Part shown: piece by piece, positions 41,387 to 45,673 of the stretch
Layout: the number at the start of each line of letters is the position of its first letter
How positions within the stretch are numbered: position 1 is the stretch's first letter
NCBI RefSeq assembly: GCF_029873255.1
Contig: NZ_CP123622.1
Location: 1,886,501 to 1,950,500, forward strand
Direction: 5' to 3'
From: Pigmentibacter sp. JX0631
Lineage (GTDB): Bacteria; Bdellovibrionota_B; Oligoflexia; Silvanigrellales; Silvanigrellaceae
DNA length: 64,000 bases
Notes under the pieces: generated by a model
The model's input: the letters and a program-made list of their open reading frames with translations, nothing else
Told to the model about the DNA's origin: nothing
Database searches by the model: none
Made by a program: the position numbers and the translations under genes

Positions 41387-42217
41387 ATGAAATATAAACT
41401 TTTAAATGTTAGAATTCAAAAATCAAGTGAACAAAAACCATTAAATTATCCAATTGTTTTACTTAGAGGACTCGGTCGCTCAATGAGTTTTTGGCTAGAT
41501 TTTGAAGCTGAACTTTTAAAATATTTTGATATTGTTTTTGTTGATTTACTAGGTACCGGTGGTAGTAAAAGTTTTTTTGGTAGGAAAAGTATTGATAAAT
41601 TTGCACAAGATGTTATTTTTACTTTAAACTACTATAATATTAAAAATTTTCATCTAGCTGGCATGAGCTTAGGAGGAATGGTTGCTTTAGAAATGACCCA
41701 TATTTTAGGGAAAAATAATTGGTATAATTTATCATGCAAATCTATAATTGTTTTAAGTTCTTCTGCTATTGGTTCAGGATTAAAAAGAATATATATTTTG
41801 CCGCTAATTAGTATTTTATTTTCACTAATTCTTTCTTTTTTTTTAGGAAAGTTATCCCATAAGTATTTTGCAAAATATCTAATTGCTAATAGAAATATTC
41901 CTTTAGATTTTTGGATTACTAAATGGGACAATATTTGGGAAAATGAATATTTTTCTAGAATGGCTTTACTACGCCAATTAATTTCTGCTAGTTTTTATAG
42001 AATAAAATTAAACAGCAAGCAATTAAAATACAATTATCTTTTTCTTGTTTCTAAAGACGATGCTTTAGTGCCATGGCAAAATACTGTTTATTTATGGCAA
42101 AAAACATCTTTAGCTTCTTTAGTTGTGTTAGATGGTTTAGGCCATGATTTAACTACTGATTCACCAGAAAAAATTGCAACTATATTTTATGAATTTTCAT
42201 TGAAATTTGATGCTTAA
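41387..42217 (+). CDS. Alpha/beta-fold hydrolase
   Basis: 276-aa hydrolase with the oxyanion-region start PIVLLRGLGRSMSFW, then FVDLLGTGGS. The nucleophile elbow is AGMSLGGMVALEM (Ser). DDALVPW supplies the acidic residue, and DGLGHDLTTDSPE the His. A hydrophobic cap (~140-165) could be a membrane-associating lid. The substrate is unknown; lipid ester or thioester cleavage are common in the family. The ATG at 41387 has a weak ribosome site, but it is the only Met before the conserved start. It follows the AgmX-like gene by 7 bp and shares TTAA as overlapping stops with the convergent small gene. Confidence 0.85.
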   Translation: MKYKLLNVRIQKSSEQKPLNYPIVLLRGLGRSMSFWLDFEAELLKYFDIVFVDLLGTGGSKSFFGRKSIDKFAQDVIFTLNYYNIKNFHLAGMSLGGMVALEMTHILGKNNWYNLSCKSIIVLSSSAIGSGLKRIYILPLISILFSLILSFFLGKLSHKYFAKYLIANRNIPLDFWITKWDNIWENEYFSRMALLRQLISASFYRIKLNSKQLKYNYLFLVSKDDALVPWQNTVYLWQKTSLASLVVLDGLGHDLTTDSPEKIATIFYEFSLKFDA

Positions 42218-42534
42218 TTATTTTTTCCATATGGCTTTAACTTATCTGGAGTCTCATGAAAATGAATTGTTTTATTACTACCCCAATAGAAATCAGCACC
42301 TAATGCTAATTTTTGAAATACTTCGATAGCTTCTTTTTTTGATACAAAATCAACATAAGCTTCTCTATATTCCCCAATATTTAAATTTGTGTATTTTATT
42401 ATAACTCGATACTTTCCATTATGCAGAATCATAATATCTACCCAATTTGCGCTAAAACCACCTGAATATGAATATGGATAGTATATTAAATTAAATAATA
42501 TTATAATTGATAAATAAACATATTTTCTAAGCAT
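42214..42534 (-). CDS. Small secreted protein, 106 aa
   Basis: Signal peptide MLRKYVYLSIIILFNLIYYP with cleavage near SYS|GG, then a ~80-residue mature domain with WVDIMILHNGKYRVIIKY and KEAIEVFQKLALGADFYW. No family recognised. It lies directly downstream of pnp, and its ATG starts immediately after the T run of the pnp terminator. The only Shine-Dalgarno-like bases (GGGTG) are in the 3' arm of that hairpin. Expression would need read-through and opening of the stem. Its stop overlaps that of the convergent hydrolase by 4 bp. Confidence 0.65.
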   Translation of the reverse strand: MLRKYVYLSIIILFNLIYYPYSYSGGFSANWVDIMILHNGKYRVIIKYTNLNIGEYREAYVDFVSKKEAIEVFQKLALGADFYWGSNKTIHFHETPDKLKPYGKNN

Positions 42535-42614: not shown

Positions 42615-44738
42615 TTAAACTATCCAAGGTTTAGTGCCTTCTACAGAAGGGGTTTTTCCAATCGCATCTTTTCTACTTAACTTAATTCTACCTGTACGAT
42701 CAAGCTCAATTACTTTGACCATAACTTCATCGCCTTCTTTAACGACTTCTTCAGTTTTATTAATTCTAGTTGCGGCAAGTTGAGAGATATGAACCAAGCC
42801 TTCGACACCAGGTTTAATTTCTACAAAAGCTCCAAAATCAGCAGTTTTCTTGACAATTCCAAGATAAATTTCACCAATTTCAGGATCGGTAGTTAGATAA
42901 TTCACCATGCGTTTTGCTTTTGCTGCCGAATTGCCGTCAGTTGAAGCAATGCTTACAATTCCTTCATCATTTACTTCGAGCTTACAGCCTGTATCTGAAA
43001 CTATTTTCTTAATATTTTTTCCACCAGGACCAATTAAATCACGAACTCTTTCTGGTTTAATTTTAATTTGTTCAATTCTTGGAGCAAGTTGGCTAAGATC
43101 GTTTGGTCTGGATATTACACGCAACATGTTATCTAAAATTAAAGTTCTACCTTCTTTAGCTTGTGCAAGTGCTTGTGCAAGAATTTCCATAGAAATTCCA
43201 GAAATTTTGATATCCATTTGCATAGCGGTAATTCCATTTTTACCACCTGCGACTTTAAAATCCATATCACCTAAATGATCTTCGTCACCTAAGATATCAG
43301 AAAGAATTGCAAATTCTTTATCTTCTAGAATAAGTCCCATAGCAATACCGGCTATCGGTTCTTTTAAAGGAACACCAGCATCAAGCATAGCTAAAGTACC
43401 AGAACAAACGGAGGCCATCGAACTTGAACCGTTACTTTCAGTAATTTCGGAAACAATTCTAATGGAATATGGAAAACGATTTTTTGTTGGAAAAGTTGCT
43501 TTTAAAGCTCTTTCAGCCAAATTTCCGTGTCCAACTTCCCTGCGTCCTGGAGATCCCAGACGTTTCACTTCACCAACGGAGTAGCCAGGCATATTATAAT
43601 GTAACATGAATGTTTTTTCTTCTAAGACATTCATAATAGATTCCGCTCTTTGTGCGTCATCATGGGTTCCTAGAGTGATAACACCAAGAGATTGAGTTTC
43701 ACCACGTGTAAATAGTGCTGAGCCATGAGTTCTTTTTAAAACTCCTACTTGGCAATCAATATTTCTAATATCTTTTGAACTTCTTCCGTCAACTCTGCGA
43801 TTATCTTTTATAATGCTTGAGCGAAGAATTTTATATTCCTGCATTTCAAACAAATATTGAAATGCTTTTTCTGATTCTTTGTCGTTTTCTATTACGAGCT
43901 CTAATTTAGCTTCTTGTTTTACTTTATCAATAGCTTTTTTTCGATCTGTTTTCGAAGCTAAAGAATATGCTTCTTTTAAAGGTTTGGCATATTTTTTAGA
44001 AATAATAGCTTTCATATCATTATTTTGTGGTGCTTCTGGAACAGTTCTTTTTTCTTTGCCACAAATTTTACGGATTTGTTCTTGGATATCACATAATTTT
44101 TTTATTTCTTTGTGACCAATTTCAATAGCTTCCAATATTTGAGCTTCTGTCAAAAAGTTTGCAGCCGCTTCTACCATTAAAATTGCGTCTTTAGTTCCCG
44201 CTACTACTAAATCTAAGTCACTTGTAGGGAGATCTGATTCAGCTGGGTTGATTAAAAATTTACCATCTTTGAAACCTATTCTTACTCCAGCTACTGGTCC
44301 TGCAAATGGAATGTCTGAAATATGAAGAGCGCAACTAGCTCCTAAGATAGCAAGTTGTGCAGGAGATACTTTAGACTCTAGAGATATTACTTGAGCAATT
44401 ACTTGAGTTTCAACCAAATACGTTTCTGGAAAGAGAGGGCGAATTGGCCTGTCTATCAAGCGGCTAGTTAGTATTTCTCTGTCTGAAGGTCTTGTTTCTC
44501 TTTTTATGTACCCACCAGGTATTCTTCCAGCAGAGTAAAACTTCTCAATATAATCTACCGATAAAGGAAAAAAGGAAGCTGTTGCTTGAGCTTCTTTTGC
44601 TGCTGTGGCGGTGACAAGAACTTGAGTTCCGCCACAAGTTACAAGAACAGAACCGCCTGCTTGTCTTGCTATACGTCCTGTTTCAATAGTGATTTCATCT
44701 TCACCAATTTTTATGGACTTTTCTGTGATATTAAACAT
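42615..44738 (-). CDS. pnp: Polyribonucleotide nucleotidyltransferase (PNPase)
   Basis: 3'-5' phosphorolytic exoribonuclease, a core of the RNA degradosome. The 707-aa protein has two RNase PH domains: the first with ETGRIARQAGGSVLVTCGGTQVLVTA and RPSDREILTSRLIDRPIRPLFP, the second with RVDGRSSKDIRNIDC, FTRGETQSL and GDMDFKVAGGKNGITAMQMDIK. A KH domain (IGPGGKNIKKI) and an S1 domain (GAFVEIKPGVEGLVHISQL) follow. AAGG precedes the ATG. rpsO, its common upstream neighbour, is absent. Instead a structured ~130-nt leader lies upstream, suggesting autoregulation or attenuation. Confidence 0.98.
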   Translation of the reverse strand: MFNITEKSIKIGEDEITIETGRIARQAGGSVLVTCGGTQVLVTATAAKEAQATASFFPLSVDYIEKFYSAGRIPGGYIKRETRPSDREILTSRLIDRPIRPLFPETYLVETQVIAQVISLESKVSPAQLAILGASCALHISDIPFAGPVAGVRIGFKDGKFLINPAESDLPTSDLDLVVAGTKDAILMVEAAANFLTEAQILEAIEIGHKEIKKLCDIQEQIRKICGKEKRTVPEAPQNNDMKAIISKKYAKPLKEAYSLASKTDRKKAIDKVKQEAKLELVIENDKESEKAFQYLFEMQEYKILRSSIIKDNRRVDGRSSKDIRNIDCQVGVLKRTHGSALFTRGETQSLGVITLGTHDDAQRAESIMNVLEEKTFMLHYNMPGYSVGEVKRLGSPGRREVGHGNLAERALKATFPTKNRFPYSIRIVSEITESNGSSSMASVCSGTLAMLDAGVPLKEPIAGIAMGLILEDKEFAILSDILGDEDHLGDMDFKVAGGKNGITAMQMDIKISGISMEILAQALAQAKEGRTLILDNMLRVISRPNDLSQLAPRIEQIKIKPERVRDLIGPGGKNIKKIVSDTGCKLEVNDEGIVSIASTDGNSAAKAKRMVNYLTTDPEIGEIYLGIVKKTADFGAFVEIKPGVEGLVHISQLAATRINKTEEVVKEGDEVMVKVIELDRTGRIKLSRKDAIGKTPSVEGTKPWIV

Positions 44739-44759
44739 GAAAAAACCTTAATAAATCCT

Positions 44760-44885
44760 AAATAGCCAAACAAAAATCGGGAGAAATTGTATGGCTATTT
44801 GATTGCTGTTTATCCTCCCGGCCAATCCGAGAGTCCCAACGCACCATGCGCCGGCTTCTTTGTTTCCCGTTTGTCGAAAGTTCAT
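44760..44885 (-). promoter_or_regulatory. Structured pnp leader with mutually exclusive helices
   Basis: Read on the minus strand. Helix 1 is CTCTCGG (44827-44833) with CCGGGAG (44815-44821). Helix 2 is CGGGAG (44815-44820) with CTCCCG (44778-44783), followed by ATTTTTGTTT. Helix 3 is AAATAGCC (44793-44800) with GGCTATTT (44760-44767). Helix 2 excludes helix 1 and interleaves with helix 3. A small stem CGCA/TGCG (44840-44850) lies upstream. The 44813-44855 part is far more GC-rich than its surroundings. No known riboswitch class was recognised. Confidence 0.6.
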
Positions 44886-45019
44886 GCTAGCAGATAATTT
44901 TCTTAAGAAAAAGCATTTAGTTTAGATTTAGTTGAATCTAATTGCGTTTGGTGATTTAACCATCAAGGCGTTTTAACGTTTAATTAATTTTTTGCTAAAA
45001 TAGTTGGAGAGTTTTTTTA

Positions 45020-45673
45020 ATGACACTTTATAAAGTATTACATTATCCTCACGTTCTTTTACGAAAAAAAGCAACGTCTGTGGAGAAATTTACAGACGAA
45101 TTAAGAGATTTTTTAAAACACTTCATTAATACAATGTATGAATTTGATGGTGGTGGTTTGGCGGCTCCTCAAATTGGTGTTTCAAAACGAATTTTTGTAG
45201 TGGATTTTAAGCCCGCCTTTGAAAGTGATAAATTCGATTTTAAAAAAGAATCTTTCAGGGTTTTTGATAGTGACAATAAAGAGATTGAACCTAAGTTCCC
45301 AATGGTTTTTATTAATCCAACTTTAGTTGAAATGTCTGAGCCTATTAAGGTTAATTGGGAAGGCTGTTTGTCCTTTCCAAATGCAGAATCTTATAATACT
45401 GATAGGTTTTTAAATGTAGAAATACACGCTCAAAATGAATTTGGTGAAAAGTTTTCTGTGAAGTCTTCGCATTTATATGCAAGCGTTTGCTTTCAGCATG
45501 AATATGATCATTTAGATGGAATTATGTTAGTGGATAGATGGAATAAAAATTCTTTTTCTGATGCAGATGTTATTGCTGATATTAAAGATTTTGAAAATGA
45601 TCCTGCCGAAAGAAAGAGAATGAAAAAATTAAAAGTTACTGAAGCCAGTAAACTAAAATTTGATTTTCTTTAA
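45020..45673 (+). CDS. def: Peptide deformylase
   Basis: Removes the formyl group from nascent N-terminal methionine. The three metal/catalytic motifs are GGGLAAPQ (44-51), EGCLS (114-118) and HEYDH (160-164). At 217 aa it is longer than typical (~170). An insert of ~25 residues (~65-92, FKPAFESDKFDFKKESFRV) separates motifs 1 and 2, and a C-terminal extension is present. TTGGAGAG precedes the ATG. It stands apart from fmt, its usual partner. The stop shares TTAA (45670-45673) with the convergent cytochrome gene. Confidence 0.95.
   Translation: MTLYKVLHYPHVLLRKKATSVEKFTDELRDFLKHFINTMYEFDGGGLAAPQIGVSKRIFVVDFKPAFESDKFDFKKESFRVFDSDNKEIEPKFPMVFINPTLVEMSEPIKVNWEGCLSFPNAESYNTDRFLNVEIHAQNEFGEKFSVKSSHLYASVCFQHEYDHLDGIMLVDRWNKNSFSDADVIADIKDFENDPAERKRMKKLKVTEASKLKFDFL

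Follow-up and report, generated by a model that had tools for sequence, protein, structure and literature searches.

A conserved folded leader upstream of pnp in the Silvanigrellaceae is a candidate cis-regulatory RNA

Polynucleotide phosphorylase (PNPase), the product of pnp, is a central enzyme of RNA decay that is autoregulated in E. coli. In Pigmentibacter sp. JX0631, a member of the Silvanigrellaceae, which NCBI places in the Oligoflexia, Bdellovibrionota, pnp is separated from the divergent def gene by a 281-nt gap that contains a GC-rich island (GC content of 0.56, compared to 0.22 to 0.30 in most surrounding intergenic windows). A preliminary description of this locus had correctly singled out the GC-rich island within AT-rich DNA and proposed that it encodes a regulatory RNA in the pnp leader, with helices 1 and 3 competing against a helix 2. 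The question raised by this locus is whether the region is a conserved structured RNA and, if so, how it could act on pnp. Positions below refer to the 64,000-nt stretch of DNA that was analyzed as a whole (the window), and the genomes compared carry G numbers, G000 being that of JX0631.

On the minus strand, the elements follow one another in the order extended -10 element, hairpin HA, GA, hairpin HB, GAUAAA, hairpin HC, a brief AT-rich segment containing AAGG, and finally the ATG of pnp (Table 1). The -10 element, which reads TCTATTAGGGT in G009, is located at a near-constant distance of ~28 to 31 nt from HA across nearly all 13 leaders, and pnp transcription is predicted to start near position 44877. 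A generic promoter scan did not list this element on the minus strand. The predicted pnp mRNA leader is ~140 nt long and stands behind its own conserved extended -10 promoter, so that the structured part lies downstream of this promoter-like element. Directly 3′ of pnp, a 106-aa ORF (42214-42534, minus strand) with a signal-like N terminus had no NCBIfam match and is possibly cotranscribed with pnp.

Table 1. Positions of the pnp leader elements and flanking genes in the window
Feature	Position	Strand	Remarks
pnp, polynucleotide phosphorylase, 707 aa, putatively controlled gene	42615..44738	-	TIGR03591, 983.6 bits vs cut-off 525
Probable Shine-Dalgarno AAGG of pnp	44746..44749	-	7 nt before ATG; similar purine-rich site in relatives
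Hairpin HC (helix 3 of the preliminary description), AT-rich, before ribosome-binding site	44760..44800	-	starts 14 nt after HB; fold of 44757-44803, z = -4.7 vs dinucleotide shuffles (0/200)
Purine-rich tail GAUAAA after HB	44809..44814	-	GAUAAA in genera g1 and g4
Hairpin HB (helix 1 of the preliminary description), CUCUCGG-AUUGG-CCGGGAG	44815..44833	-	predicted fold
GA linker between HA and HB	44834..44835	-	in 13/13 leaders (alignments), allowing for an additional base in the HA 3′ arm of G008
Hairpin HA, CCGGCGCA-UGG-UGCGUUGG, 8 bp	44836..44854	-	predicted fold
Extended -10 promoter element TCTGCTAGCAT	44884..44894	-	form T.TG.TA...T in nearly all 13 leaders
def, peptide deformylase, divergent neighbor, outside the RNA	45020..45673	+	TIGR00079, 124.3 bits vs cut-off 104

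An initial search at the DNA level detected the leader in front of pnp in members of the same family. A covariance model built from 11 sequences then matched 12 Silvanigrellaceae genomes at E values of 1e-16 or lower, in every case upstream of pnp, and the leader of G001, which had been left out of model building, was found at 2.5e-6. The leader is therefore present in 13/13 Silvanigrellaceae genomes with a recovered pnp start; G011 falls outside this count, as pnp itself was not recovered. The genome of JX0631 carries a single copy, upstream of pnp. Elsewhere in the class, the model gave no convincing HA/HB match, the phylum-level search covering the same 58 genomes as the class search; weak matches below 1e-3 (G033, G018, and a second one in G008) were not at pnp and were judged to be chance upon inspection. 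Scanning of GTDB species contigs returned six pnp leaders and one chance match in coding sequence, and the contigs matched by pattern include Fluviispira multicolorata and Spirobacillus cienkowskii. A match in a genome collection labeled Rhodocyclaceae had neither HB nor the pnp context and was also attributed to chance. No leader match was found in the viral contigs searched, and the matches listed in a literature search included no work on Silvanigrella RNA motifs. At the level of these sequence searches, the HA/HB leader is specific to the family Silvanigrellaceae and linked exclusively to pnp.

The minimum-energy fold yields HA, HB, and HC, and the fold of positions 44757-44860 is more stable than that of dinucleotide shuffles (z = -3.4, 0/200). 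Helix 1 (44827-33/44815-21) was recovered as originally written, with compensatory changes in relatives, and the best-conserved part of the leader, HA, had been absent from the earlier account. In the covariance-model alignment, which was fitted to the structure and so leans toward it, 7 of the 15 HA and HB pairs changed on both sides (3/8 in HA and 4/7 in HB), a level reached by 0/500 shuffles; 98.5% of HA cells and 95% of HA/HB cells overall were paired, compared to 38 to 53% when partners were slid. The check suggested at the outset, covariation across pnp upstream regions, thus came out in favor of the HA and HB stems. A hand reading in which strands were swapped between species agreed with this picture, as the pairing of the species' own strands was reached by only 59 (HA) and 65 (HB) of 20,000 permutations. 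G001 has a different 8-bp stem with a larger loop at the HA position, and its HB stem is wholly rewritten around the same loop (CUUUUGGA-UGG-UCCAAAAG). When genera g1 and g4 are compared, the similarity of the 50-nt core exceeds that of 99.8 to 100% of pnp coding windows.

The covarying pairs also indicate which strand is folded. G-U pairs at HA and HB positions on the minus strand, frequent in HA, are C-A mismatches on the plus strand, which points to the pnp-sense strand as the RNA. This asymmetry, the constant adjacency to pnp, and the lack of a terminator between HB and the ATG in a simple scan all argue against the leader being mainly the source of a small RNA acting in trans or antisense. 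Although the E. coli rpsO-pnp spacer carries such an RNA, SraG, on the opposite strand, we consider this explanation extremely improbable here.

Conservation extends beyond the stems. The HA and HB loops contain UGG in nearly all members, with different loop letters in G001 and G008, and the tail following HB reads GAACAA in G009 and GAGAAU in G008 and is not kept in G001. An upstream ORF starting from an AUG in the HA loop was considered and rejected: its frame varies between genera, G001 has no AUG, and there is no Shine-Dalgarno sequence. Known 5′ stabilizers are stable hairpins near the 5′ end, and the hairpins described here lie ~20 nt from the predicted one. The leader could accordingly be a passive stabilizer or processing signal that guards the mRNA from decay initiated by RNase E or a pyrophosphohydrolase, without any feedback. 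Such a role would not, however, require the loop letters to be conserved, the GA linker to be invariant, or the spacing to be nearly fixed across several genera, and we regard it as unlikely.

We then examined the switch at the center of the preliminary description, in which helix 2 (44815-20/44778-83) would displace helices 1 and 3 and act as a riboswitch or terminator attenuator. The complementarity of helix 2 does exist in the window, and all six pairs are also complementary in G002 and G006, but it is not conserved: G003, G004, and G005, which belong to the same genus, lack one or two of the six pairs, and in the other genera tested the helix is weaker or absent, no better than with shuffled loops. 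Forcing helix 2 costs about 8 to 15 kcal/mol within the genus and 6 kcal/mol in G010, so mutually exclusive helices are not supported. The resemblance to a terminator did not hold up either, since helix 2 is broken in relatives and energetically costly; moreover, no U-tract follows it outside the genus, and a simple scan found no intrinsic terminator in the leader. With no metabolic regulon in addition, the switch model is largely refuted and highly improbable, and the riboswitch label itself has drawn no positive evidence.

A riboswitch of an unknown class could still be formed by HA-GA-HB without helix 2, sensing a metabolite or an ion. Tandem-hairpin riboswitches exist, as in guanidine-II, and the leader is likewise compact and conserved, with two tandem hairpins whose loops are conserved as well. 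PNPase, furthermore, responds to citrate (PMC5371410). Against this stand the restriction to one gene in one family, the loop letters that differ in G001 and G008, and the fact that no expression platform was recognized, which together make this alternative very unlikely.

Helix 3 (44793-800/44760-67), now part of HC, was likewise confirmed as proposed, by the predicted fold and by compensatory changes in relatives. Within the genus, two HC pairs changed on both sides, and the covariation score was reached by 1/500 shuffles. HC starts 14 to 15 nt after HB in four genera, not in G001, and its stem is no better than chance in G009, G013, and G001. The HC loop is CCC-rich (44778-44783), with (U)CCCGA kept in g1, and is complementary to ACGGGA near the predicted 5′ end. 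This pairing beats shuffles in part of g1, is weak in g4, where a different pair of stretches also matches between the HC loop and the 5′ end, and is absent in G009, G008, and G001; from these sequence matches, a long-range contact is possible. Two related candidates were rejected. For a pseudoknot between the CCC-rich HC loop and the GGGA after HA, the bases are part of the HA stem, and the pairing does not exceed that of shuffles in g4 and G008; for pairing of the 5′ end with the ribosome-binding site, own pairs do not outperform swapped pairs or shuffles. No conserved structure masking the pnp ribosome-binding site was found in the leaders.

The genomic context of pnp differs between the lineage carrying the leader and the rest of the class. 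According to counts made by hand from two tables, rpsO and pnp are adjacent in 40/40 genomes from the remaining families of the class with hits for both genes, and apart in 13/13 genomes inside the order. In G000, rpsO (C1:880181) and pnp (C1:1929166) are ~1.05 Mb apart. In G014, the only genome from the sister family, they are located on different contigs and pnp adjoins def, the divergent arrangement beside def being found in the whole order. The leader occurs only in the lineage with the rpsO-pnp split; none was found upstream of pnp in G014, a reduced genome that is 74% complete. This split but leaderless genome suggests that the leader followed the breakup of rpsO-pnp and was either gained in the Silvanigrellaceae or lost in the sister family.

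Taken together, we propose that the first ~140 nt of pnp mRNA could be a Silvanigrellaceae-specific cis-regulatory RNA that sets the PNPase level by feedback, a reading to which we assign a probability of roughly 0.45 on comparative grounds. HA and HB, joined by GA and with UGG loops in nearly all members, would form a recognition module, and HC would connect this module to the ribosome-binding site. The tandem hairpins would be bound by PNPase, the product of this same mRNA, or by a partner, e.g., an endonuclease, and binding would lower the translation or the stability of this mRNA. By analogy with E. coli, PNPase autoregulation through the leader is plausible; we infer this feedback from the linkage to a single gene, the conserved loop and linker letters, and the E. 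coli and Actino-pnp precedents, and control of a single gene is more in keeping with autoregulation than with a metabolite regulon. More tentatively, the leader may represent a protein-responsive class in which, after pnp left the rpsO operon in the Silvanigrellales, tandem UGG hairpins were acquired and came to be read by PNPase or a new partner, independently of E. coli and the Actinobacteria.

Alternatively, the leader could mediate repression of pnp by a different RNA-binding protein, for example CsrA/RsmA or one of the ribosomal proteins. There is a precedent in E. coli, where pnp is regulated by CsrA, which prefers GGA in hairpin loops (consensus RUACARGGAUGU) (PMC7652899). The csrA gene was found in 13/13 leader-bearing genomes, and GGGA follows HA in all leaders. 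However, the loops hold UGG and not GGA, and the GGA after HA lies outside the loops and is partly paired. That csrA was not found in G014 or G011 is weak evidence, given the reduced and incomplete G014 genome and the pnp start not recovered in G011. We hold repression by such a protein to be improbable, and feedback by PNPase or a partner remains our preferred reading. As the leader is present only where pnp has parted from rpsO, it offers a natural test of how feedback is rebuilt after the break of an operon. It is, in addition, a candidate RNA family for the little-studied Silvanigrellaceae, with clear parts that can be mutated, i.e., the UGG loops, the GA linker, and the compensatory stems.

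We finally compared the leader to known RNAs. In Rfam 15, no family reached its gathering score in the leader, only tRNAs did so in the window, and the matches listed at E values up to 10 were far below their gathering scores at this locus. The conserved folded pnp leader thus appears to be new, as no Rfam family covers it. The proposal of a cis-acting pnp-leader RNA outside known classes, made in the preliminary description, is supported, the RNA being conserved, covarying, downstream of a -10 element, and found only upstream of pnp. Guanidine-II (mini-ykkC) resembles it in architecture only, with two neighboring short hairpins bearing like loops; the guanidine-II loops are ACGR compared to UGG here, no Rfam match was obtained, and the gene context is unrelated. 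A closer parallel in genomic context is Actino-pnp (RF01688), a known pnp-leader family described by Weinberg and colleagues in 2010 as a structured RNA before pnp in one bacterial group, classed as cis-regulatory and not as a switch (PMC2864571). However, the JX0631 genome has no Actino-pnp match at E values up to 10, and the best match in the order scores 17.1 bits compared to a gathering score of 47.7, with no listed match at pnp.

The E. coli rpsO-pnp leader is also a structured 5′ leader of the same gene that ends near the ribosome-binding site, and it is cleaved by RNase III (PMC5371410). It consists of one long hairpin in the spacer behind rpsO, whereas the Silvanigrellaceae leader consists of three short hairpins behind its own promoter; consistent with the dissimilarity noted at the outset, the covariance model has no match to the E. 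coli region. In terms of duplex length only, E. coli has a 12-bp gapless run within a much longer interrupted hairpin, of which the Silvanigrellaceae leaders fall short with longest gapless helices of 7 to 11 bp (7 to 8 bp for HA and HB), so the RNase III step of E. coli may not apply. A long interrupted hairpin containing a gapless helix of 13 bp (AAAGCG.CTTTATCTCT ... GATACTGT ... AGG.ATAAAG.CG.TTT) is common to the rpsO-pnp spacers of family f10 (L108, L109, L114, and L125), suggestive of a separate pnp leader in another lineage, closer to the E. coli type. In the rpsO-pnp spacers of family f4 (L117 and L121), a GC-rich hairpin of 13 bp, GCGGAGGCG...CGCCTCCGC, precedes a T-run, an arrangement that could be read as a terminator or an RNase III site. 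In the Silvanigrellaceae, the tandem hairpins would fill the role that leader control by RNase III/PNPase plays in E. coli, with a different RNA.
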